From Candidatus Peribacteria bacterium (GTDB lineage: Bacteria > Patescibacteriota > Gracilibacteria > Peribacterales > Peribacteraceae): 64,000 nt of DNA. Location of the stretch: contig JAHFJN010000001.1 in assembly GCA_023245865.1 (NCBI GenBank), positions 612,722 to 676,721 on the forward strand, read 5' to 3'. The notes beneath the pieces are model-generated. The model ran no database searches. It was not told the origin of the DNA and saw only the letters and a program-made list of their open reading frames with translations. Shown here piece by piece: positions 4,217 through 54,833 of the stretch. The translations under genes were made by a program, and so were the position numbers. The first letter of the stretch is position 1; each line of letters begins with the position of its first letter.

Positions 4217-7200
4217 TTAATCACCGATGCGGATCTTCTCCGTGTTTTTACACTTGGGATAGTTGCTGCATCCAAAGAACACTCCATACCGTCCTTTCTT
4301 GGGTTTCATCGTGCCTCCGCAGCTAGGAAGAGGACACTCATAAGACTCTAAGCTCTTGATATCTATGCTTTCCGTCTTCTTCTTTTGCATTTCCCTCGCG
4401 TTCGTCTTCGCTCCGCACTCGCTGCATTCAAAATAAACTCCAAACTTACCATTCTTCCAAATGGTTATACCGTTGCATTCGTCACACAGAGGATTTTCTT
4501 GTTCATGGATGTTGCTGCCTTTTGTTCCAGATGGAGTGCAGACCAGTTGGGATATCTGGCTGCATGTTTTCTTTCCAGGGATTCTCAACATGCTTTCCGA
4601 TGAGTTGGTATGAGAGAGGATATTGAGTGATCCATGCCAAAGTATTGAGTCATCAATCACGCAAATCTTTTCGTGCATCTTGGAGCGCAGATCAATAGTC
4701 ACGCCTGCATCTATAAGAGCCTGTACGGCAGGTGTAAGCCCATTCGCCATGATCTCTCCCAATTCATCAATAGGGCGCATCACCAAACGTATGGTTACTC
4801 CGCGCCTCTGGGCATCCTTAAAGAGTTCTACCCACCTGCTAAGGCCGTTGAGGGTTACGAAGGGTGAGAAGATCGTGATGGATTTCTTTGCCTTCTGAAT
4901 GTCCTGCGTGAATGCAGGATAGAAACTGCCCTCATTGAAAGCCCCTGCGCTATCCATATCGAGCTTAAGTTTTGTCTTTGTGATGCGCTCAAGAGCGTCA
5001 TGCCAGTCCTGATCTCCAATCGGTAGCAGATCGCGCACATCAAGCGGTGAGCCATGCTTCTCAAAGTATTTAAGAATGCTCAACACGAGCATGTCATCCT
5101 CAGCCGTTCTTCTCAAGAACTCAAAATTGGCTACCAGAATGACATGCTCTTTAGCTCTACTGAAAGCCACATTCAATAACCTGCCGCCCTCCTCCTCTCT
5201 TTGCGTTGCTGAGAGGAATTTACCTAAGCGCACACCCTCTGAGTCCGTGAGATCAATAATCATTGTCTCCTTTTCGTTCCCTTGGAATCTATGAACAGTA
5301 GAGGCAAATGTTGCTGGCCTTCCCAATTTATCTTCTACAAGTGAAGCTATGAGTTTCGTCTGAGCGGAATAGGGAGAGACGATTCCCAGCGTTGTATTTT
5401 CCTCATCTGCTTTCGGCAGGTATTTCTTCTGCGCGAAGAACGAGACGATGTTGCGGATGAGCAACGCATGGAACAGGTTATAGCGCGAATACCCTCCCAA
5501 CTTCATGGAAGCCCAGGGATGGAAAGTAGAGGTATCAATATAGAGAAGATGTTCTTTGGACAGAGGCATCTTTGAGACGTTCTTTTTTACACTCTCATCT
5601 GGAATCAGAGGATGATCGTAGTAAAAATGCTCATTGATACAGTCACAGATGGTTTTCTTCATGCGGAATTGTATTTGGAGCGCACAAAGGTACTCAGGCA
5701 GCTTCTTGGACTGCACCTTCTTAGGAATGCCAGCCATCTCAAATACGTCCTTCTTAAGCCATTCTAGAGCCTTTGGCTCGTTGGACATGACGATGGGTGA
5801 AAGCTGCCTGAAATCCCCAGCGATGACCACAGACTGCGTAGCAAGCCCACAAGCGTAGTACGTCATGGGCAGCATTACCATTGAAGCCTCATCCACGATT
5901 ACTACATCAAACTCTCTATGCAGATGAGATTCCAAGAATGTTCTGTAAACGGTGGTGGCTAAGATGCGGCAGTTCTTGAGCACCTGCTCTCGCATGGCGG
6001 CCAGTTGAGTATCAATTTCTTTCAATTGGAGACGCAAATTCTCTAGCTGCTTCTCCGTAGTGGAGATCGCGGAAGGGTAAGATGAAACATTGGGATGTTC
6101 CTTAAGGTTTGCTTGGATGTTTTTCAGCAGTTCTTCCGTCTCTTTGGCCTCTTTCCCCGCATGAGCCACAGCCTTATCAATCTCTGCCGCTGCATCAATG
6201 CAGGACTTACGCATGATATCCACCTGTCCCATCTGTCGCATGATCTTCTCTGGATGCAAACCCATCACCATGCGCTTGAGTGAGCCAGCACTCTTTGCTC
6301 GTTCCAGCTTTTCTTCCAGCGCGTCTTTTTTGCTCTGATACAGAGAGATTTTTGACGATAGCCCAGCACGTTTCTGTTGATTGGCGTGAAGATTCTTTGC
6401 AGCATAGTCCGCATTCTTTTCAACATCTTTGAGCGTCTGATGAAAACGAATAGCTTCTTGCATCGGTTGTATTTGCCCCTCTAGGTGTGAGATTTCCAGC
6501 ACGAGCTTCTGCCTTTCTCCCTGTAGTCCTTCGCTCAGACGTTCCACGATCTCATCAATGAGTACTTGTTTCCCATGCTTCTCAATCAATTCCTCCTTCA
6601 TGGCTGGCCCCAAACGGATAACTGTGCCGCGCTGATACTCCTCATCTGTCACTAAGCGCTCTGCTACTTTTTCCAAAGCGGTATCCACGGCAATATTCGT
6701 ATTGGATACGAGCAGTACAGAAAGGCCTTTGCGATAGAACCCCTCTACGACACGCGCCAATGTTGTGGTCTTCCCTGTTCCAGGCGGCCCCCAGACGTAA
6801 GTAACCTCGCTACCAAGTGATCGGCGGATGATTCTCTGCTTCTCCTCATTCATTCCTTCAAGTAGCAATGCCTCATCTAGCTCAGCATCCGCAGAGGCGA
6901 TATGGCCCTCTCCAATAGCCTTCCTAGCGAGCGTAGTGTTGAAAGCAGCCTCTCCGCTCTGCACTTCGCTTAGACGCTCCTTAAGGCGTTCTAAGAGGAA
7001 GGAGTTATCAATAATGATACGTGCACTTGAGATTGAATCTCCCAAGTCAGCTTCTAAGGCGACTATAAGCACGCCTTCGTTCGTGGAAACAATGATTCCT
7101 GGGATGTCGTCTTTCCCACAGGCAAGACGTATGGGCGAGTCATCCTTCAATTGAGTACCTTCAATATCCTCTGAGAGAGGGAAGCGATAGAGGGTATTTG

Positions 7201-7321
7201 TTCCCTCAGTCTGAAGGCGCTCACCTCCGCGCACAGTAATCTGCTGGGAGTTGCCCTTCTTGCGAATGGCGGCAACCTCTAGGCCTAGAGCCTCAATCAT
7301 GTTTGTCAGATTGTCTGCCAT
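4217..7321 (-). CDS. SF1 (COG1112/UPF1-like) helicase fused to a PLD-family nuclease domain and C-terminal topoisomerase-type Zn ribbons; Mokosh type II-like candidate defence protein
   Basis: Walker A GPPGTGKTTTLARVV, Walker B VIVDEASMV, helicase motif region LNVAFSRAKEHVILVAN; HEKICVIDDSILWHGSLN (HxKx4D PLD motif); CDECNGITIWKNGKFGVYFECSECG and CPLPSCGGTMKPKKGRYGVFFGCSNYPKC Zn ribbons. Confidence 0.9.
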   Translation of the reverse strand: MADNLTNMIEALGLEVAAIRKKGNSQQITVRGGERLQTEGTNTLYRFPLSEDIEGTQLKDDSPIRLACGKDDIPGIIVSTNEGVLIVALEADLGDSISSARIIIDNSFLLERLKERLSEVQSGEAAFNTTLARKAIGEGHIASADAELDEALLLEGMNEEKQRIIRRSLGSEVTYVWGPPGTGKTTTLARVVEGFYRKGLSVLLVSNTNIAVDTALEKVAERLVTDEEYQRGTVIRLGPAMKEELIEKHGKQVLIDEIVERLSEGLQGERQKLVLEISHLEGQIQPMQEAIRFHQTLKDVEKNADYAAKNLHANQQKRAGLSSKISLYQSKKDALEEKLERAKSAGSLKRMVMGLHPEKIMRQMGQVDIMRKSCIDAAAEIDKAVAHAGKEAKETEELLKNIQANLKEHPNVSSYPSAISTTEKQLENLRLQLKEIDTQLAAMREQVLKNCRILATTVYRTFLESHLHREFDVVIVDEASMVMLPMTYYACGLATQSVVIAGDFRQLSPIVMSNEPKALEWLKKDVFEMAGIPKKVQSKKLPEYLCALQIQFRMKKTICDCINEHFYYDHPLIPDESVKKNVSKMPLSKEHLLYIDTSTFHPWASMKLGGYSRYNLFHALLIRNIVSFFAQKKYLPKADEENTTLGIVSPYSAQTKLIASLVEDKLGRPATFASTVHRFQGNEKETMIIDLTDSEGVRLGKFLSATQREEEGGRLLNVAFSRAKEHVILVANFEFLRRTAEDDMLVLSILKYFEKHGSPLDVRDLLPIGDQDWHDALERITKTKLKLDMDSAGAFNEGSFYPAFTQDIQKAKKSITIFSPFVTLNGLSRWVELFKDAQRRGVTIRLVMRPIDELGEIMANGLTPAVQALIDAGVTIDLRSKMHEKICVIDDSILWHGSLNILSHTNSSESMLRIPGKKTCSQISQLVCTPSGTKGSNIHEQENPLCDECNGITIWKNGKFGVYFECSECGAKTNAREMQKKKTESIDIKSLESYECPLPSCGGTMKPKKGRYGVFFGCSNYPKCKNTEKIRIGD

Positions 7322-44004: not shown

Positions 44005-46392
44005 CTACTTTCTCTGTTTCCTCTTTTTCTTCTCGATCCCTTCGCCGTTCTCCCTCAAAAACTCCGGTAGGAGCATCGGGGGTTTGATACCGGGGATCTG
44101 TTCAATCACGTCAAGATCTTCGAGTGCGATTTTGCCGATGTAAAGACGCTTCAAATCACCTCCCTGTGCCAGGAACTCTTGAATCGCGCGCTGTCCGCGG
44201 AAGTACACAATGCCTTTGGTGAAAGCTCCCGCCTCGCTGGTATCGCTCAGTCCCCGTTTGATGTCGATGGCTTTCGTGAGGGCACGCTCGGCGCTATGCC
44301 CCAGTTCCTCCTGCAGATACGCACGCGTGTCCGCGAAGGAATGTTCGAGCGCATACACCGTGCCCAGAATCAATCGTGCCGGGTCGAAGCGTTTCTCATT
44401 ATGGGGAGAGAGGAAACGATTCTGATTCTCGATCGCAAGACCCTCCTGCGTGTCCAGGTAATTCGCACACCCGCGCCGCAGGAGCGTATAGGGTTGCTGG
44501 TCACCGTTCTCCGCCGTGAGCACGTGTGTCTCGATCTCATGCGCAATAAGTGCGGGAATGTACCGAGGCGGAAAAAGCGCGTTGTCGCGCAGGTACACAT
44601 GCTTGCCGCCGACGGCAATCCGCGCGACGAGATTTTCGCGGATACTCACCTGCCAATCATGCAGACCGTAACGCTCGAGCACCTCTGTAAAGAGCGGTGC
44701 CGCACGGTGCGCGGTAAGCATCTCATCTGCGGGTGTCGGAAGTTCGCACGCCATTCGACTCTTCAGCAGCGATGCTGCGGAGGTGATCAGAATCGAGCTC
44801 GGGAGACCAAAGAGTGCGGCAGACGCCTCCGTCAGTCGCCGTGCATCCCCGCGAGCACGGAGCAGCGAGATGCGCAGGAGCAATTCTCTTCTCTTCTTTT
44901 TGAGCAACACCCCGATAGGAGTGTCGTCCGGAAGCAACGAGAGAAGACGCTCCTCCATTTCATCGATATTCTCCGGGAGTGCGCCATAGCGAAAGACAGG
45001 GTTGTACCGGGTATCCGCCTCCGCACGTGCGCGCTCTTCCGATAAATTTTCAGGTTTCAGGTGCTTGAGCACCAACAATTCTTCGTCGAGTTGCGTCATG
45101 AGTTTATCGATGGCACGCAGATCGTCTTTCACTGTAGAAACAGTCGTCGAAGCACGCACAACTTTCGTGGGATCAATGAGAAAACCGGCGAGATCCCTCC
45201 GACCGATCATCATCCGCACGGTCGAAGGCATGTTCTGATCTTCGCGGACAACTGTCTGGATTTTTTTGCCGCCGAGCGTGAATTTGATCCGGTACCCTCC
45301 CTCCACCTGCTGCAATTCCGAAAGCAGATTCGATGCCACCGTCGAACGTTCCTGATCGGGCGCGATGAGCGCGGGGATCTCCACGGTCGTACCTGCGCCG
45401 GAGACACTCACGGTTTCACGCGTCGCGAGGACAGGACGCTCAGGGTCTTCAGGCGCTGCGGGCTGTCGCACTTTCTCACCAAAGAGATCCTGCGCGAGGC
45501 GCACGCCCTTCTCAGGCGTACTGACTGTCACCCCCGCCACACGCTCAAGCCGCGATCGCAGCGGTGCCAAATTTGCGACCTGGACCATCAGGCCCGCACG
45601 TGCGTTGACTTCAAGCAGTACCGGCCCCTGCTCGGCATCGATCGTAAGATCGACTGCAAGGTAACCGATATTCGTGATCGACTGGATGCGCGATGCAATG
45701 AGGAGCAATTCCTCGAAATGTGGAATCTGTACCCCTGCAGGTGATCCACCATGCGGGAGCACATCGATGATGCGGTTGTACTGCGTTGCGTACGTGGTCA
45801 CGCCTTTGCTGAGATCGATCCCGATGCCGATCCCCCCCTGGTGCACGTTCGCTTTGCCGTGACTTCCTGCTGTCGGAATCCGGAGCATCGCCATCACCGG
45901 AACGAGGTTAAAGACGACGATCCGAATGTCCGGAAGTCCCGCTGGACGAAAGGGCGCGAAGCAACTGTCGGGAATGAGAATGCGCTCGAAAAATGCCGCG
46001 TCCCTTCGGCCGTTCACGGAGTACTGCCCGTCGAGAATATCCTCGATGTGCTCGCGGAGTTTCTTTTCTGAGATGGGTTGCTTCCCTTCTTCAAGAAACA
46101 AACCATCCTTGCGTCCTTTAAAAATGAGAATGCCCTCTCCCCCGAAACCATTATTGGGCTTGAGAACGCACTCATCGGGAAGCTGCGAAAAATCGAACGT
46201 GCCTAGTTGCTCGCGGGTTTCAATGCGTGCGTAAATCTTCGCGACCGGAATCCCGCGCGCCGCGAGGAACGCTTTCGTCTTCAATTTGTCATCCGCAAAC
46301 GCCACTGCCTTGCGCGGGTTAAACGGCTTCACGTAGAGCAAATTACGGGCATTGAGGCCGAGAACGCCGTGATGGGAGAAAAAAGAAAACAT
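44005..46392 (-). CDS. Fusion of RimK-like alpha-L-glutamate ligase (ATP-grasp) and DUF1704/QEGLA metallopeptidase-like domain
   Basis: N-term LGLNARNLLYVKPFNPRKAVAFADDKLKTKAFLAARGIPVAKIYA, CVLKPNNGFGGEGILIFKGR, GNIGYLAVDLTID/VLLEVNARAGLMVQVAN; C-term IPALIAHEIETHVLTAENG and LDTQEGLAIENQNR. Confidence 0.88.
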   Translation of the reverse strand: MFSFFSHHGVLGLNARNLLYVKPFNPRKAVAFADDKLKTKAFLAARGIPVAKIYARIETREQLGTFDFSQLPDECVLKPNNGFGGEGILIFKGRKDGLFLEEGKQPISEKKLREHIEDILDGQYSVNGRRDAAFFERILIPDSCFAPFRPAGLPDIRIVVFNLVPVMAMLRIPTAGSHGKANVHQGGIGIGIDLSKGVTTYATQYNRIIDVLPHGGSPAGVQIPHFEELLLIASRIQSITNIGYLAVDLTIDAEQGPVLLEVNARAGLMVQVANLAPLRSRLERVAGVTVSTPEKGVRLAQDLFGEKVRQPAAPEDPERPVLATRETVSVSGAGTTVEIPALIAPDQERSTVASNLLSELQQVEGGYRIKFTLGGKKIQTVVREDQNMPSTVRMMIGRRDLAGFLIDPTKVVRASTTVSTVKDDLRAIDKLMTQLDEELLVLKHLKPENLSEERARAEADTRYNPVFRYGALPENIDEMEERLLSLLPDDTPIGVLLKKKRRELLLRISLLRARGDARRLTEASAALFGLPSSILITSAASLLKSRMACELPTPADEMLTAHRAAPLFTEVLERYGLHDWQVSIRENLVARIAVGGKHVYLRDNALFPPRYIPALIAHEIETHVLTAENGDQQPYTLLRRGCANYLDTQEGLAIENQNRFLSPHNEKRFDPARLILGTVYALEHSFADTRAYLQEELGHSAERALTKAIDIKRGLSDTSEAGAFTKGIVYFRGQRAIQEFLAQGGDLKRLYIGKIALEDLDVIEQIPGIKPPMLLPEFLRENGEGIEKKKRKQRK

Positions 46393-47882
46393 TATTCCTC
46401 TTGCAGATGTCGGAACACTTCCTTAAACCTCACATACTCAACGAGCCGCAGCCCCGTCCACCGTCCGAGGATCACATCAATGACAATCGTGAGGAGTATC
46501 AACTCCGGGTATGCGAGCACGATCGACTGAAAGACCGCCCACTGAACGATGAACACGCAGAGAAGCGAGGCCAGAATCGTCTCGATGACACCGATGATCG
46601 CACTGCGCCACCCCTCCTCCGTCTTGAGATTCATAAAACTCTCGGAGAGCGTCGACATAATGAGGAGGATGAAAATCGTCTCTCGGGAGAACGTAATGCC
46701 GAAACTTGCACTGAGTCCCATGAGCAGCAGCAGCGTGAAGCTCACGACCGTCAGAATGATCGCAACTTTGGGAATGTAGAGCAGCCGCCACCGTTTCATG
46801 AGCATGCGCGTCGCGTAGCCCATAAAGAGAATAAGAAGCAGAAAGAGCACGCCCAATTTCCACCCGAGCGCGAGGAAGCTCAGCGCAATGATGGAAGGCG
46901 TGTAGAGGCCGAATGTCGTGATGCCGATCACCTGCTTGAGGATCGCGAGGATCATGGCGATCACGGGCAGCACCAGCAGCAAAATCACCGTCTGACTCGG
47001 CACCCCTTTGGTGAGCATCGCGTTCACGAGTGAGCTGAGCAGGTTCCACGGACGCAGTCCCGCGGTCGATGCATTGATGCTGACGTGCTCGATATCGCGC
47101 CGGTTGATCTCCTGGACAAACTGATCGACGCTCGCGGACGTCAGCAGCGTATCGATCGCCTCTTTGCGCGTGAGCATAATCTGTTCGGGCTTCAGCACCG
47201 AGTACGGGCCGCGCGCCGTGCGGGCTAAGGTATTGAGACTGCGATCGGTGATCAGCACGATCGTTTGACTGTGAATACCAGCAAGGAGGGTGTCACTGCC
47301 CTGCACCGCCCTGAGCAGCGACTGAAGCCCCGCGATGCCCTCTGTCCAAAACACAATCACATTCGCGCCGAGAAGTGCATCGTTCTGTTCACTCAGAAGC
47401 GCTGCGAGCGCTTCCTCGTCGCTGAGAGGCGAAGTGGATGGACTTGGCTGCAGGACGCGGAGAAACACGCCCGCATCGGCCGCAACTTGGCGATGAACCG
47501 TAAGCTTGTCCGCAGGTACGGTCGCATCCGCTACGAGCGTGATTTTACGAACGTACACATTCACCGCATGCGTGACCTCCGACGTCATTTTCCCTCCTCC
47601 CGGTTGAGGCATGGTCACAACTAAACGGAAGATCAGCGTTCCCGGACGCTCGGGTGTGTAGACCGCTTCGACCGTCTCACTGATCGGCTGCGTTTTCCCA
47701 AGAATGTACCAGCGATACTGCACCGTGCTGTCCGTCGCCTTATTGAGACTCCCCTCGAGGACGATCGTGCGGCCGACTGCGATATCTTCGGGCCCGCTGA
47801 TGATGGGGACGAGCGTCTGCGCATGGGCGAGGAGAGGCAACGCAAGAATGCCAAGCGAGAGAAGGAGCCTACGCAGCATCAC
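46392..47882 (-). CDS. Membrane protein: signal peptide, PKD-like domain, C-terminal 7TM module of the transglutaminase-linked type
   Basis: MLRRLLLSLGILALPLLAHAQ; PKD-like IVLEGSLNKATDSTVQYRWYILG; 7TM QVIGITTFGLYTPSIIALSFLALGWKLGVLFLLLILFMGYATRMLMKRWRLLYIPKVAIILT. Confidence 0.75.
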   Translation of the reverse strand: MMLRRLLLSLGILALPLLAHAQTLVPIISGPEDIAVGRTIVLEGSLNKATDSTVQYRWYILGKTQPISETVEAVYTPERPGTLIFRLVVTMPQPGGGKMTSEVTHAVNVYVRKITLVADATVPADKLTVHRQVAADAGVFLRVLQPSPSTSPLSDEEALAALLSEQNDALLGANVIVFWTEGIAGLQSLLRAVQGSDTLLAGIHSQTIVLITDRSLNTLARTARGPYSVLKPEQIMLTRKEAIDTLLTSASVDQFVQEINRRDIEHVSINASTAGLRPWNLLSSLVNAMLTKGVPSQTVILLLVLPVIAMILAILKQVIGITTFGLYTPSIIALSFLALGWKLGVLFLLLILFMGYATRMLMKRWRLLYIPKVAIILTVVSFTLLLLMGLSASFGITFSRETIFILLIMSTLSESFMNLKTEEGWRSAIIGVIETILASLLCVFIVQWAVFQSIVLAYPELILLTIVIDVILGRWTGLRLVEYVRFKEVFRHLQEE

Positions 47883-48235
47883 GTAGCGAGAAGGGCCTTC
47901 TCCTTCTGTCCACGCACGCGCTTGCGGACCGTGCGCAATTCCTTGTACTTGATGAGTTGCGGCTCCAACTTTTCGACCGCGCGATCGAACGCCTCCATGA
48001 TCTGCGCTTTGCGCGACTCCGCGCGCAGGATCTTCCCCGGGAGTTCCACCGTGAGCATCACCTTCACTTCGTCAGCTTGTTTTTTGGTCGGGCGCTTCTC
48101 GGCCTCCACGCGGATCACCGAAGATTCGTCTTTCAGCTTGCCACAATACGTCGCCATTTTGCCGATCTTCCGCGCAAATACCTGCAAATCGTGGTCACTG
48201 TACCTAATCCCTTTCTCGAAGTGTTCAATGTGCAT
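47879..48235 (-). CDS. hpf: Ribosome hibernation promoting factor / RaiA family (short form)
   Basis: MHIEHFEKGIRYSDHDLQVFARKIGKMATYCGKLKDESSVIRVEAEKRPTKKQADEVKVMLTVELPGKILRAE. Confidence 0.8.
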   Translation of the reverse strand: MHIEHFEKGIRYSDHDLQVFARKIGKMATYCGKLKDESSVIRVEAEKRPTKKQADEVKVMLTVELPGKILRAESRKAQIMEAFDRAVEKLEPQLIKYKELRTVRKRVRGQKEKALLAT

Positions 48236-48341
48236 AGTGCTCAAGGGGGAACGAGTGAGCGAAGTATAGCACGTCTTCCCTCCTTTTAATGTGTCATGCC
48301 GAGTGTTTTCGCGTAGCGAAAAAGTATCGAGGCAGGCCTCC

Positions 48342-48633: not shown

Positions 48634-49551
48634 ATGGAATTTGCACCGAAAAATCCCAAACAGAGCGAGGAAGAGTTCAATGCGTTGCTGTCGGCAATGG
48701 AACAATATAATCAACAATTCTCCCTCGGGAAGATGATGGCATCATTCCTGTCTGATCACGTGCATCAAGCTATTGGCACAAATGTTGGAGATGCAGAGGA
48801 TATTTTCAAAACATCGCGTGAACACCGTCGAATTTCCGAAGGGTCGTTCCTCGATAATCATGCAAACATTCTCAATACGATGGGTTTGAGAATTGAACCC
48901 ACAGAAGGGAAAAACGCAACTATGTTTGCAGGAGGTGAAGCGCTTGGAACGGGGGAGATGCGCTTGAATATCGGAGATCGAGAAAAGTTTTTGTGCTTTC
49001 TGCGCACACTGTCACCGGAGACCGGTAATGATCAATCCCCCTTCGCTCCGAACTTGGGGAAATTAATAGACGTTCTGCAAAAGCAAATCGAAGATCATTA
49101 CGATATTGATCACCCATCCGACGAAGCCATAAACATGCTCGCTTCGATCGACAGTATCGTCACGGAATATAAGCGCATCGGCTTAGGTAAAAATATTGAC
49201 GTATTGCATTCGTATCTCGAGAAAATACGTGGAGGATATTTCAGGGAATACCTTCTTATTCGGAGAAATAAAATCATGGTACGTCCGGACGAATGGGGTC
49301 CGGCAATATGGCACAAGGACAATTCGGCAGAGTCTCTTAGGACTGCTTGGGACAAGGCAATCGACATATTGGAAAAAGTACAAAAGAATCCTCGTGCTTC
49401 CCGACTTGCAAAGGAACTGCAAGAACATTTGATCATGTGTGCGCACCACTCAATACAGCATCTCAAAGATAATCCTGACTGTTACCAAAACACGTCTATT
49501 CAATGGAAGGACATGCAGGAAGTTGTGACGGATGCTCTTGAGAGACTTTGA
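48634..49551 (+). CDS. Hypothetical protein
   Basis: 305-aa ORF MEFAPKNPKQSEEEFNALLSAMEQYNQQF...; no family recognised. Confidence 0.6.
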   Translation: MEFAPKNPKQSEEEFNALLSAMEQYNQQFSLGKMMASFLSDHVHQAIGTNVGDAEDIFKTSREHRRISEGSFLDNHANILNTMGLRIEPTEGKNATMFAGGEALGTGEMRLNIGDREKFLCFLRTLSPETGNDQSPFAPNLGKLIDVLQKQIEDHYDIDHPSDEAINMLASIDSIVTEYKRIGLGKNIDVLHSYLEKIRGGYFREYLLIRRNKIMVRPDEWGPAIWHKDNSAESLRTAWDKAIDILEKVQKNPRASRLAKELQEHLIMCAHHSIQHLKDNPDCYQNTSIQWKDMQEVVTDALERL

Positions 49552-49582
49552 GAGTCGATAGGCAGAATGCGGTGTCCACGCA

Positions 49583-49611
49583 TTGCACCATAAATGCTTT
49601 TATGGTACAAT
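49583..49611 (+). promoter_or_regulatory. Sigma70-type promoter TTGCAC-N17-TACAAT (copy 2)
   Basis: TTGCAC 49583-49588, TACAAT 49606-49611. Confidence 0.7.
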
Positions 49612-49642
49612 ATCCATGAAATCCCAAACACATATCTATGGC
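49602..49642 (+). repeat. 41-bp direct repeat covering -10 region, leader and start codon (copy 2)
   Basis: Identical to 48361-48401. Confidence 0.9.
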
Positions 49643-50516
49643 AAATGAGGCTGTAAATAAGGTCATTGATGGCGTACTCGGGGCAGAGAAAGAGGCCCCG
49701 TCACGTGAGGACTTGCTCGACATTGCGGATACCGAGGAAGCCAGGCAGGAGCTGATTGATCAGACCGAGTTTGCCACCAAAAAAAGCAGAGATTTTTTGC
49801 GCGCGGAGATTGAAAAGGCGCGCACGTCGCTCGGTGAGGAAGAGCGGGAACAAGCGGAAAAGCTGGCTGTCTTGGAACAAGAATTGGCAGAGGCAGAAAC
49901 AAATCGCGAGCAGAAGCGCAGGAATCCCGGAGCGGAAGAAAAGAAGAGTTTCATGGAAGAGCTGAAATCGCGCGATACCGCGGGCAAGTTTGCATTGGTA
50001 ATGGAAAAAATCGGCGAATTCGCCGAAAAGATTGCGGATTTCTTTGAGTCCATGGGAAGCACGACATTGCTGAGCGTGGCTTCCCTGATGGAAAAAATGG
50101 GAATGGATGCCGCTTGGGTTGAAGGGCTCCGTGCAATGGCAGGAAAAGAAAAGGCAATCATTCAATCCAAGTTACAAGCCGAGAATTTTACACTCATCAA
50201 AGACATCGCCGTCGACGGCAAGACAAAGGATGGCAGAGCTATTGCAAAATTGAAGCAGAAGTACGAGAGCATCTGCAAAGAAAAACTTGAAGAGGCTGTT
50301 CGCAAAACATCTGCGGCACCGACGGTGCCCCCCGCAGTGCTCACCATGAAAACAATCAAAACTCAATACAGCTTTGAAAACTTCATGGAGGAACGCATCA
50401 TGCCGGTCATCCAAAGAAATGAATGGACCCTCAAGATGCCCGATGACAAAGGCCGCAAGCAGTTGAATCTCAGCGACATCGTCCACGCCTGTGAAGTCGC
50501 CCATGTCCTTTCCTGA
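49638..50516 (+). CDS. Hypothetical charged/coiled-coil protein
   Basis: 292-aa ORF MANEAVNKVIDGVLGAEKEAPSREDLLDIADTEEARQ... Confidence 0.65.
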   Translation: MANEAVNKVIDGVLGAEKEAPSREDLLDIADTEEARQELIDQTEFATKKSRDFLRAEIEKARTSLGEEEREQAEKLAVLEQELAEAETNREQKRRNPGAEEKKSFMEELKSRDTAGKFALVMEKIGEFAEKIADFFESMGSTTLLSVASLMEKMGMDAAWVEGLRAMAGKEKAIIQSKLQAENFTLIKDIAVDGKTKDGRAIAKLKQKYESICKEKLEEAVRKTSAAPTVPPAVLTMKTIKTQYSFENFMEERIMPVIQRNEWTLKMPDDKGRKQLNLSDIVHACEVAHVLS

Positions 50517-50520
50517 CTCT

Positions 50521-50766
50521 ATGTTCACCCGAGGAGCCGAAACACCGAAGGAAGATTTGATGCCCGCCATCCAGAGCGCGCAGGAAAGTACACGCGGCAG
50601 CGTTGCCAACACGATCGGTGGTATCGTCGATACGACACTGAGTGTCGGCGTTGGCACGGGGAAAGTGCTAGCCTATGGCTCTGGCAGAGCGATCCGGGGA
50701 GTATTTGAAGTAGGCAATGCCATCAAGAAAGGACTCGAAGCAAATCCGTATCCGCAGGCGGCCTAG
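50521..50766 (+). CDS. Small hypothetical protein
   Basis: MFTRGAETPKEDLMPAIQSAQESTRGSVANTIGGIVDTTLSVGVGTGKVLAYGSG... Confidence 0.45.
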   Translation: MFTRGAETPKEDLMPAIQSAQESTRGSVANTIGGIVDTTLSVGVGTGKVLAYGSGRAIRGVFEVGNAIKKGLEANPYPQAA

Positions 50767-50834
50767 ACACTCGGGTAAATCATGGGAAAGCGTCATGGTA
50801 AATGTGCCACATTCATGCTATAATTACATGATTT

Positions 50835-53800
50835 ATGGCAGAACCCAACACAAACAACACCCCCGGCCCTGATCGTGTCACCGAGCTTGTCAAACAGGCA
50901 GAGGGATTCGTGAATCGCGAAGACATGATCCAGTATGTAAAAAGTGAGCTGGAACTCATGAAACCCTCCCGCAAGGAGATCGTACAGGCGCGCGAGGAGG
51001 TCGAGCGTTCGGAGGTGCTCAAGAAAAATGACACCGCCCGCGAGGCGTTACTCACGGAAGTGGAGAGAAAGAGAGTGGAAATGGAGGAGGAAACGAAGAG
51101 TGCGTCGCCGGAAGCAAACACACAGGAAATAAAAGAGTTGCAGGCGAAGAACAAAGAACTTGCAAAACAAGAGACATTCACCGGTGGACTGCAAACCGTA
51201 TCGGGACAAGTGGTGGATAGCATCCTCCCAAAGCGCCTGACCGATCACATGTCACCACGGCAAAAAACAGCACTCGCCGCCGTCGGCACCGTCGGCCTTG
51301 GCGTTCTTGCCTATTTCCTCTTCTTCCGCGGAAAGAAAGGGGTGGAGGCTGGAAGACAGGCATCGAATAAAGGACCATTCATCGCGCTCGGTATCGCTAT
51401 TTTGGCTTTTTTGGGAATCAAAGCCTACCAGAAATATGATAGGGATGCGCTCGTGAAAAAGAGTAAAGCTAAGGCAAAAGAATGGTCGCAAAAAGGCGTC
51501 GAGAAGGGTATGGAGAAAATACAAGGTGGTGCTGATAAAGCCAAAGACATAGAACAAAAGACTGACGTCTTTGGTGGCATTGGGAGAGATGTCGCTGCGC
51601 GTGGATTGTTGATCATGCATAGTTCATTAAAACAACGTGCAGGCATCGATGAACAAAGCGACACGGCAGTGACAAACATATTGCAATTCCAAAACATACG
51701 CTCGATACCTATTACGGAAATTGTAGCTTTGGGTGATATGGAAAATTATAATGAAGCCCAGTCAGAAACAAAAAAAATATGGGAGAAATATGGCCCTAAA
51801 AATCCACGCGAGGAACAATTGCATGCTCTCTATTTCCTTGGGCTTGTTTGCAAGCAACATGAGAAATACATCGTGGGAACAAATACAAAATCAAATAACC
51901 CTCTCACGATTGAAGATGCACTTCATAAGCTCGTCCAGCCTGCAGAAGCATTTGATAAAGTAAAACGCGGTCTTGCCGGCAAAGACCTCACACAACTTCC
52001 TGCGGTATTGCACGAGGCGTTTAATACGCACATCAATATTGAGCTACCACACATCGGAACTGCATTAGAAAAATTAGGGCTCTCAACAAAAGAAGAGATG
52101 CGGGCATTTGTCCTTTTCTGTAGCTCTCACCCAGAAATCTATTTATCTCATACAGATCAGCTGCCCGATGCAATTGAGCCTGATAATCCCTACAAGGAAA
52201 AATTCCTCAGGGCCTTCACAAATCTTTCACAGAATGTGAATAGAGGAAAAAAGTACTTCGGATTGTATTTGCACGATGATCGCTTTAAACCAGCTCTGGA
52301 GAAATATTGGAATGACAAGATGGAACTCTCCGATGCATTGCAGCTGTATCTGCTCCTAGACCAAGTACCCACACAAAAAGGAGAGCTACCTCACAGCACA
52401 AGTGATACTCCACCATTGGTCGCTGCCATGCTCCAACTGCAAGCACTTAAAATGGTCTCTTTTGGGGATGAAGATACAGGCACAAAAATGAAAGCATTCC
52501 TGTTCTCAGAGGCAGCAAATACATTCATGGGAATGCCAACAGATATTCACCTACCTCCTGCCGCAAAAGAATTTTTAAATGAATTTGGGGCTATCGTTTG
52601 GAATATGACCAAACACGAAGCAAAGAACCTAGTACAACTTCCTCGGAAGGGCTTCATGACCATGCAAGAAATATACCATAAGAATAAACTTACAGTACTC
52701 GGTACGGAAGCGGCCGGATACATCGTATGGCGATCAATCTGGGCCGCAGATAACGCAGGCTTAAAGCTTGCAGAAAATGTCGGCAGCACGATGGCACCGC
52801 TGCTGATGGAGCAAAAAGCAATACTCGTACGTACACTTGGCAAAATACCCGTTATCAGAGGTCCAGCTCTCGCTCTAAACAAAGTCACACCCAAAGTGAC
52901 AGGCATGACTAAAATCGGTCTTGTAGGAGTGGCTCTAGACGCCCAGGATTTTTATTTGGATAGACGACCAAAAATACTGGAGGAACTTGGAAAAACGACC
53001 GATCCGATTAAGAAAAAATTATTGGAAGATGAACTCTTTAATCAGCAAATGAATTTTGCAATCAATGGAGCGGCTGTTCTTGCACCGACTCCTTGGGGCA
53101 TTGGCATTTTTGCTGCTAACGGAGGAAAGGAAGCAATACGAAAATCTATCAACGAAGGGACATATTACATACTCCAGACAGAAGCAGAAATGAGAGAAAT
53201 ACCTCCAGGTGCTGATTTGTGGCAGATCATGCGAACGACACAAGGCAATGTGAATATGATGCAGGGAGCTGCTAATATTGGAAATGGAAACGCAGTTGAA
53301 AAGGCAAACGAACAAATCCGCACCGAAGCATATCGTGCATACTTTCATCAAATCACATGGAGTCTGGGCGATCTTGGACTTGAATTCCTGAAACCGGAGG
53401 AAATTCAAATGAACGAGGAGGAGCAGAAAAAACGTCTAAAAATATTAAATGATGAGCAAAAAACTGAGTTCGTGAATGCAGCAGAGGAATACATACGACA
53501 CGTAACTAAAAAACACTTCGGCATTGTAGGGCCAGAGGAATTGCGGAATGCAGAGACATATGCACGCTGTGACATCATCGATTGGCGCCGTTCCAAGCTG
53601 ACAGGGGAACCAATGGAAGTAGGGAAACTACCTTGGGAAGATAGCCGAAATGAAAAAGGAGAACTTATAAAAGGTCGCTTGAATATGGTTAAGGAAAGCA
53701 CCGAGGCTCAAAAAGAAATAAAAACTGCTGGTTTGAACGCATTACCAAGAGACAATCCGGCAGAATTTACAATGGGAACACTGATGATGTTTCTCAAAGA

Positions 53801-54833
53801 TATCGAGCACGACATTGCTTCATTCGAGGCTAAAATCCTGTCGGAGAATCTCGATCGATGGGAATGGACGGGCGGCGAAGAAGAGAGCAGAAATGCAGCA
53901 AGGCAAACGACCGCTTTCCTAATTCAACGGACGCTGGCGACCGAAATCGATCTCCTTCTTCGTATGAGCACCATAACACCCGATGCTTATGAGCTTGCGA
54001 TCAAGAATCTACGTATGATATTGAATGGTGATCCATTGCAATATCAACGCGATGGAACAGAAAAATATAAATGGCAATCACGTGGATTATTGAAAAAACA
54101 CTATGGATCCGGACTACTCAGTATGGAAGGAATGCTCGCCTATATCGAAGGAAATCCCTACGTGGAACTGGACTCGTCCCTCGTGGCCAACACGCCGGAC
54201 AATGCCCTTCCTATCGAACAAATCCTCAATCAGAAAACGGACACCGTTCGCATGATGAGTAATCACTTCTTCGTGAAAGACGCAAAGGGCTATCAGCTTA
54301 TCCCCATGAAAGACAATACCCCTCTCGGCGATGCCATGAAAAATCTGCGTCGCGAGATTCCATCAAATGAACCATATCGGATTGAGGCAGGAGCCTATGC
54401 AATCTACAGACCCGGTGAAGAGATAAAGACCAATATGTATGGACGGCCACAAATTGGCTCAGCAACGTTACGTATGGAGCAGGTATTGCCAGAAACTGAG
54501 TTACAAAATAAGAGATTGCTCAAGGAGAAACAGAGAAAAGAGGGCGTTGCAATTCTCAAGCAGGCTGGCGCAGAGGAACAAGCATCCGGTGCCTTCTATG
54601 TGCTGAAATACAGCATGTGGGACAAGGCACTCACGTTCTACTTCGATGGGGAAACTGGTAAATGGAAGGTGGCGTTCGGTGGATGGCAAGATCTGGAAAG
54701 TAACCGCAGACACACTTCCATGTCAGGACAGAATGCGGAAACATTTGAAGTCTCCGGCATGGCATGGGGTGGGAGTGAAAAATACAATACAGTGATTCGC
54801 AAAATTGCAGATATCAATCGTCTTGCCGCCTGA
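50835..54833 (+). CDS. 1332-aa uncharacterised membrane-anchored protein
   Basis: Single uninterrupted frame; N-terminal coiled coil, two TM helices (TALAAVGTVGLGVLAYFLFF, GPFIALGIAILAFLGIKAY), then a ~1100-aa soluble region with no motif recognised. Confidence 0.8.
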   Translation: MAEPNTNNTPGPDRVTELVKQAEGFVNREDMIQYVKSELELMKPSRKEIVQAREEVERSEVLKKNDTAREALLTEVERKRVEMEEETKSASPEANTQEIKELQAKNKELAKQETFTGGLQTVSGQVVDSILPKRLTDHMSPRQKTALAAVGTVGLGVLAYFLFFRGKKGVEAGRQASNKGPFIALGIAILAFLGIKAYQKYDRDALVKKSKAKAKEWSQKGVEKGMEKIQGGADKAKDIEQKTDVFGGIGRDVAARGLLIMHSSLKQRAGIDEQSDTAVTNILQFQNIRSIPITEIVALGDMENYNEAQSETKKIWEKYGPKNPREEQLHALYFLGLVCKQHEKYIVGTNTKSNNPLTIEDALHKLVQPAEAFDKVKRGLAGKDLTQLPAVLHEAFNTHINIELPHIGTALEKLGLSTKEEMRAFVLFCSSHPEIYLSHTDQLPDAIEPDNPYKEKFLRAFTNLSQNVNRGKKYFGLYLHDDRFKPALEKYWNDKMELSDALQLYLLLDQVPTQKGELPHSTSDTPPLVAAMLQLQALKMVSFGDEDTGTKMKAFLFSEAANTFMGMPTDIHLPPAAKEFLNEFGAIVWNMTKHEAKNLVQLPRKGFMTMQEIYHKNKLTVLGTEAAGYIVWRSIWAADNAGLKLAENVGSTMAPLLMEQKAILVRTLGKIPVIRGPALALNKVTPKVTGMTKIGLVGVALDAQDFYLDRRPKILEELGKTTDPIKKKLLEDELFNQQMNFAINGAAVLAPTPWGIGIFAANGGKEAIRKSINEGTYYILQTEAEMREIPPGADLWQIMRTTQGNVNMMQGAANIGNGNAVEKANEQIRTEAYRAYFHQITWSLGDLGLEFLKPEEIQMNEEEQKKRLKILNDEQKTEFVNAAEEYIRHVTKKHFGIVGPEELRNAETYARCDIIDWRRSKLTGEPMEVGKLPWEDSRNEKGELIKGRLNMVKESTEAQKEIKTAGLNALPRDNPAEFTMGTLMMFLKDIEHDIASFEAKILSENLDRWEWTGGEEESRNAARQTTAFLIQRTLATEIDLLLRMSTITPDAYELAIKNLRMILNGDPLQYQRDGTEKYKWQSRGLLKKHYGSGLLSMEGMLAYIEGNPYVELDSSLVANTPDNALPIEQILNQKTDTVRMMSNHFFVKDAKGYQLIPMKDNTPLGDAMKNLRREIPSNEPYRIEAGAYAIYRPGEEIKTNMYGRPQIGSATLRMEQVLPETELQNKRLLKEKQRKEGVAILKQAGAEEQASGAFYVLKYSMWDKALTFYFDGETGKWKVAFGGWQDLESNRRHTSMSGQNAETFEVSGMAWGGSEKYNTVIRKIADINRLAA

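Follow-up and report, generated by a model that had tools for sequence, protein, structure and literature searches.

The window analysed, a stretch of 64,000 nucleotides from a genome of 1.1 Mb in 11 contigs whose closest named relatives, among the matches listed, are Ca. Peribacteria/Peregrinibacteria of the CPR, carries on its minus strand an apparent operon that opens with a gene for an HPF/YfiA-type ribosome hibernation factor of 121 aa (47879..48244; PF02482, E=3.9e-9). It is followed on the same strand by a gene for an RloB-like membrane protein of 496 aa (46392..47882), recognised from Pfam, NCBIfam and related loci and composed of an N-terminal hydrophobic segment, an extracytoplasmic region and a 7TM_transglut region (PF14402, E=8.2e-27). 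The stop codon of this gene overlaps the start of the following one (TAATG). The latter, at 44005..46392 (minus strand), is a single unbroken ORF of 795 aa with an ATG start preceded by AGAGGAATA, and its product, here called P0001, joins an RloC-type ATP-grasp ligase, a retropepsin-like domain and a MATCAP (DUF1704/QEGLA) metallopeptidase, as judged from the ORF, family matches, AlphaFold2 modelling and the conservation of the architecture. Scans for promoters and terminators gave signals at chance level.

Elsewhere in the window, a protein of 1034 aa (4217-7321, minus strand) combines an AAA_11/AAA_12 (Upf1-like) helicase with a PLD-type nuclease domain and a topoisomerase-type zinc ribbon; it resembles the Mokosh anti-phage system, matching the PADLOC models MkoA and MkoC with E-values of 2e-60 and 1.6e-41, respectively. 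Directly divergent from the Rlo-type operon, three consecutive ORFs of 305, 292 and 1332 aa (48634-54833, plus strand) show no Pfam match at E<=0.01.

Conservation of P0001 and of its RloB partner

Most class genomes contain full-length homologues of P0001 with identical architecture, at 28-67% identity, and the same architecture occurs among the best 80 loci of a scan of named-record contigs, in Ca. Peribacteria, Peregrinibacteria, Gracilibacteria, Magasanikbacteria and Uhrbacteria, these 80 loci of one scan being also the extent of the survey beyond the CPR. The scan returned 0 matches when P0001 was used as a single-sequence query, and its matches were obtained with an alignment as query; many survey loci are, moreover, overlapping stretches from the same genomes, so that locus counts are not genome counts. 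Considering these full-length homologues in class genomes and named records, P0001 is not an assembly join. More generally, no point was found in favour of an artefact, be it a frameshift, a misassembly or a chance match: independent assemblies carry the same chain, present in most class genomes and, among the matches listed, in named records from many studies, profile E-values are 1e-45 or lower, and whole-chain modelling by AlphaFold2 reaches a mean pLDDT of 89.6, with values of about 90 throughout the domains. Such an explanation is refuted and its probability is next to nil. No description of an ATP-grasp-retropepsin-MATCAP architecture was found in the open-access literature, nor any paper there that combines ATP-grasp with DUF1704 or treats the fusion in Peregrinibacteria.

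The RloB-like gene lies directly upstream at 84 of the 106 triple-fusion loci, and at all 39 two-domain loci, with enough upstream sequence. Across 145 genomes of the class, RloB and a P0001 match occur together in 112, a P0001 match stands alone in 7, RloB alone in 0, and neither is present in 26 (Fisher p=1e-22, kinship ignored), a few of the P0001 matches in this count being partial (ligase only in G141, MATCAP only in G049). In the RloB-like protein of the window the 7TM part alone matches and no transglutaminase domain is recognisable; the RloB proteins of two relatives (L133:558-2156 and L066:372-2570) likewise have no recognisable transglutaminase domain and show instead a PKD domain ahead of their 7TM part. 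An HPF homologue is also found just upstream of RloB in the loci of 10 relatives (Peribacteria and closely related records), and its place as first gene of the operon may point to starvation expression or to a translation-related target.

With a TIGR02291 ATP-grasp enzyme and a 7TM_transglut RloB in one operon, together with a retropepsin fold, the arrangement is like that of RloA-RloB-RloC of Pseudomonas aeruginosa (PMC12239564), and P0001 belongs to a CPR form of that operon. The initial annotation of this DNA, made from the sequence alone, had described an ATP-grasp glutamate ligase and a DUF1704 peptidase in one chain and had proposed reversible tagging. The single chain is confirmed by Pfam, NCBIfam and the class-wide homologues, and the two-domain reading, the MATCAP kinship and the tagging idea survive the tests made here; it was, nonetheless, an incomplete description, having missed the third domain and the Rlo-type operon.

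Outer domains and their active sites

The ligase domain comprises residues 5-305 (45478..46380, minus strand) and is RimK-like by Pfam, NCBIfam, alignments and Foldseek. Its match to the RloC-type model TIGR02291 (rimK_rel_E_lig, E=2.9e-77) is far ahead of every other ATP-grasp model, ATPgrasp_ST (PF14397) covers residues 16-285 far above its curated cut-off (E=1.3e-58), and RimK (PF08443) gives a weak partial match only. Since the score of 259.7 bits stays below the TIGR02291 equivalog cut-off of 314.2, the domain is regarded as a divergent relative and no equivalog is called. In alignments of 51-55 diverse homologues K40 is invariant, and conservation reaches 98% or more at K78, D248, E261 and N263; these are presumably the ATP-grasp ligand positions, assigned by their place in the fold and not from a bound structure. 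Upon Foldseek comparison the P0001 model matches RimK 5zct, a poly-alpha-L-glutamate synthetase, with an E-value of 1.7e-8, second to human MATCAP. From the earlier designation of alpha-L-glutamate ligase, membership in the RloC/TIGR02291 family of ATP-grasp enzymes stands, and glutamate as the added amino acid is something that we infer; no reported activity of RloC was found in the literature for any organism.

The ATP-grasp fold uses many substrates, and D-Ala-D-Ala ligases, LysX/ArgX and cyanophycin synthetase match the P0001 model at E-values similar to that of RimK. Together with the best Pfam name for the domain, 'sugar-transfer associated ATP-grasp', and with the cell-shape and ampicillin phenotypes of Rlo mutants (PMC12239564), this would agree with a ligase whose amino acid is not glutamate, or whose substrate is a cell-envelope precursor, the MATCAP domain then removing that same residue. 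Considering, however, that (i) the substrate of RloA retropepsins from this operon type is poly-glutamate, of which they require at least eight residues (PMC12239564), and (ii) MATCAPs act on glutamate-rich tails (PMC10499314), such a substrate is unlikely.

The MATCAP metallopeptidase domain occupies residues 430-780 (44053..45105, minus strand). PF08014 matches residues 459-766 with E=1.1e-45 and 156.6 bits, against a cut-off of 27, and TIGR02421 (QEGLA) matches with E=2.2e-53, under the strict equivalog cut-off of that model. Human MATCAP 7z5g is the best PDB match to the whole P0001 model (Foldseek, E=2.3e-10), and profile comparison of the domain with it gives E=2.6e-30. The HEIETH motif (residues 618-623; 44524..44541, minus strand), aligned with human HEIGTH, holds H618, E619 and H623 as predicted metal ligands and catalytic glutamate, and the QEGLA motif (residues 649-653; 44434..44448, minus strand; QEGLAIENQ at 649-657), in which E650, G651 and A653 are invariant, contributes E650 as predicted third metal ligand. 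H618, E619, H623 and E650, as well as K712, G714 and Y730, are invariant in 51-55 homologues 28-67% identical to P0001. E619 and E650 align with E281 and E316 of human TMCP1/MATCAP1, of which the E281A variant is inactive and E316 is needed for activity, mutation of either strongly cutting it (PMC10499314).

The kinship of DUF1704 with eukaryotic MATCAP put forward in the initial annotation is thus supported by the HEIETH/HEIGTH alignment and by both fold and profile matches to 7z5g. Structure prediction, which had been suggested there as a check, places human MATCAP and then RimK as top PDB matches, and the metal and ATP ligands, whose loss across homologues was to count against the reading, are kept in the 51-55 homologues. 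Human MATCAP1/2 (TMCP1/2, KIAA0895L/KIAA0895) are tubulin carboxypeptidases and deglutamylases that shorten polyglutamate chains (PMC10499314), and they share with P0001 the fold, the HExxxH motif and the second essential glutamate. On the contrary, identity is about 20%, and P0001 is bacterial, fused to a ligase and without tubulin context. The QEGLA proteins of Proteobacteria (TIGR02421, 'flavohemoglobin expression-modulating') belong to the same family as the P0001 peptidase; unlike it, QEGLA on Aminobacter and Sinorhizobium plasmids is a separate gene, immediately followed by a glutathione-synthetase-like gene of another ATP-grasp family, and no RloB or retropepsin was seen there. This independent pairing of QEGLA with an ATP-grasp enzyme speaks for the preferred reading set out below.

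A decayed retropepsin domain and the apparent change of eraser

The region between the outer domains resembles a linker, since plain sequence searches against Pfam and PDB sequences yield nothing significant for it. Its identity as a retropepsin comes from the fold and from profile comparison via intermediates. Residues 318-412 (45157..45441, minus strand), modelled alone, give a pLDDT of 88.3, and the top PDB match of this model is P. aeruginosa RloA2 (9g59, E=2.0e-4, probability 1.00), with further Foldseek matches to RloA 9g58, the Legionella DUF785 protein 2pma, Ddi1 and HIV protease. A profile built only from the middle regions of triple fusions matches the DTG-bearing domain of CPR ligase-retropepsin proteins, down to 3e-20, and a stand-alone retropepsin profile matches the middle region in several triple fusions, at best with 3.4e-6. 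The middle domain is therefore an RloA/RimB-type retropepsin, though a mostly decayed one, in which the catalytic DTG is lost and the flap segment shortened; the active retropepsin with D[TS]G that characterises Rlo operons is represented in P0001 by its fold, without the motif. It is also the fastest-evolving domain, with a median identity to P0001 of 34%, against 42% for MATCAP and 58% for the ligase. An unstructured tether, also considered for this region, is ruled out by the pLDDT of 88 and the retropepsin fold. The source genome holds no separate PF05618 gene, and this family scores in one of the 145 class genomes, G141.

Loss of the motif goes along with the presence of MATCAP: D[TS]G is kept in all 41 ligase-retropepsin proteins without MATCAP, from sister lineages, and in 6 of the 104 with it (non-identical triple fusions; kinship ignored), the flap segment of the triple fusions being shortened as well, and at least six changes of the D[TS]G state are needed on the ligase tree. 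Several gene arrangements accompany this pattern. One class member with TGA-recoded genes, G141, still shows at locus L066 the plain three-gene RloA-RloB-RloC form and no MATCAP fusion; an RloB-like protein, a ligase of 303 aa and a DTG-bearing RloA-like retropepsin, hydrophobic over a stretch at its N-terminus, are each encoded by a gene of their own. Ligase-retropepsin single chains of 424-536 aa, or of 856-922 aa with further sequence, are found in Moranbacteria, Paceibacterota, Jacksonbacteria and other CPR groups. In three genomes (G181, G182 and G183, at loci L133, L145 and L135) a MATCAP gene lies directly 3' of the ligase-retropepsin gene, 6-34 bases apart or overlapping it. Finally, the triple fusion is found across the class of the source genome and in some Magasanikbacteria and Uhrbacteria.

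These forms may be ordered, on an unrooted tree, from separate genes through the ligase-retropepsin chain and the adjacent MATCAP gene to the triple fusion. In the CPR variant of Rlo, the aspartic protease was apparently fused to the ligase, decayed and was replaced by MATCAP. That P0001 is in this way a single-chain writer and eraser of (poly)glutamylation, with a retropepsin that was fused first, replaced by MATCAP and kept as a dead domain, is a tentative proposal, to which we would give slightly less than even odds. The triple fusion needs two changes on a quick ATP-grasp tree; two independent origins are nevertheless not claimed, given that a single triple-fusion clade is not rejected (AU test, p=0.71) and that the MATCAP tree, in which long branches meet, lacks resolution.

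Stand-alone MATCAP genes unlinked to a ligase do exist, for example in G366 (L146) and, as an additional copy, in G045 (L068), as might be expected if the domains shared chain and operon and not a substrate, MATCAP being an unrelated housekeeping peptidase fused by chance. On the contrary, the fusion is conserved class-wide with invariant active sites, several lineages have MATCAP adjoining a ligase-retropepsin gene, and the fusion goes together with loss of the retropepsin motif, all of which makes a chance union most improbable. The MATCAP domain may, even so, act on something other than the product of the ligase.

Other combinations were also observed. Two ligase-retropepsin proteins, of 922 aa (L139:3411-6176) and 856 aa (L148:1713-4280), have extra C-terminal sequence, which in the former holds a second ATP-grasp domain (PF02655, residues 595-775). 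A second, stand-alone retropepsin gene lies directly downstream of the ligase-retropepsin fusion at L208:5481-6026 and L223:5396-5878. A protein of family f33 (L137:3511-4926) joins a glutathione-synthetase/RimK-like ATP-grasp domain to a C-terminal retropepsin (PF05618, 1.7e-17), with a MATCAP gene nearby, and is possibly a parallel combination of the three enzyme types.

Predicted function and its significance

The Rlo operon of P. aeruginosa is a hypo-osmotic stress system whose RloA cleaves polyglutamate, and losing RloB or RloC rescues a triple rloA mutant from hypo-osmotic lethality, indicating that RloA opposes the RloB/RloC product (PMC12239564). P0001 differs from that system in uniting the ligase with a retropepsin, now mostly decayed, in one chain and in the addition of MATCAP, while the window RloB has no recognisable transglutaminase domain. 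The eraser side of P0001 is, moreover, predicted to be cytoplasmic; since RloA of P. aeruginosa is periplasmic and RloC cytosolic, the fused eraser would lie in the opposite compartment, and the logic of Rlo is not simply transferable.

The RimK-RimB pair likewise couples an ATP-grasp ligase to a retropepsin, RimB trimming poly-glutamate, and the known RimBK hybrid is a precedent for a ligase and eraser in one protein (PMC11957791). Unlike in P0001, the retropepsin of RimBK is active and placed at the RimK N-terminus, its ATP-grasp family is a different one, and MATCAP and RloB are absent. RimK acting on ribosomal protein S6 is not supported as the system at work here: S6 (RpsF) of the source genome ends in ...KDLEM and not in glutamate, so that it is probably not the acceptor, and no separate RimK match was found in that genome at E<=0.001. 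One-chain ligase and eraser (RimBK), the Rlo operon type and MATCAP beside a different ATP-grasp enzyme are, thus, already known.

Data for RloA, RimB and human MATCAP indicate that the protease family that was lost and the one that was gained share polyglutamate as demonstrated substrate, from which we infer that P0001 both extends and shortens a chain resembling (poly)glutamate; this would fail if RloC used another amino acid or if MATCAP were a maturase. On the best reading, a single chain coupled with a membrane protein would carry out (poly)glutamylation that is reversible or controlled in length. The ATP-grasp domain would drive, at the expense of ATP, the stepwise addition of an amino acid, most likely glutamate, to the carboxyl terminus of a protein or peptide acceptor, and the MATCAP domain, as a metallo-carboxypeptidase, would trim the same chain, so that one polypeptide could set the length of the tag and also reverse it. 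The middle domain, a former RloA/RimB protease, may be kept as structural scaffold or as regulator of the ligase, and the RloB-like 7TM protein may sense, anchor or export the product at the membrane. We give a probability of roughly 55% to P0001 being, in this manner, the cytoplasmic enzyme in an Rlo system of the CPR type, with a ligase that extends a chain, a MATCAP domain that trims it, a dead retropepsin module and an RloB partner.

The two activities might also act in series and not in opposition, the ligase making a short free peptide or peptide-tagged metabolite that MATCAP trims to a fixed length before RloB exports or binds it. Such a biosynthetic maturase would be consistent with RimK and RimB together making free poly-glutamate in vitro, RimB stimulating its synthesis (PMC11957791), with the membrane protein RloB being tied to P0001, and with QEGLA genes that elsewhere adjoin those for N-formylglutamate amidohydrolase and a glutathione-synthetase-like enzyme, a setting that looks metabolic. 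It is, nonetheless, doubtful, as P. aeruginosa is harmed by loss of the protease and recovers when RloB or RloC is lost too, which fits an antagonist better (PMC12239564). Photobacterium damselae responds strongly to low salinity with its QEGLA (27.5-fold), RimK (52-fold) and glutathione synthase genes (PMC10308900), a response that fits the osmotic theme as circumstantial evidence.

On the preferred reading of P0001 as writer and eraser of one chain, the bacterial MATCAP/QEGLA family gains a concrete predicted role in trimming the products of ATP-grasp ligases. The Rlo stress system is extended from Proteobacteria to the CPR radiation, where its enzyme is near-universal in a single class whose genomes are very reduced, and the natural intermediates of the eraser swap are open to protein-by-protein testing. 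If the reading is true, the RimK/RimB and RloA-C glutamylation systems would be joined to the eukaryotic tubulin deglutamylases through one enzyme family, polyglutamate trimming would be a function of bacterial MATCAP apart from its eukaryotic use on tubulin, and CPR bacteria would possess a class-wide protein-tagging system.
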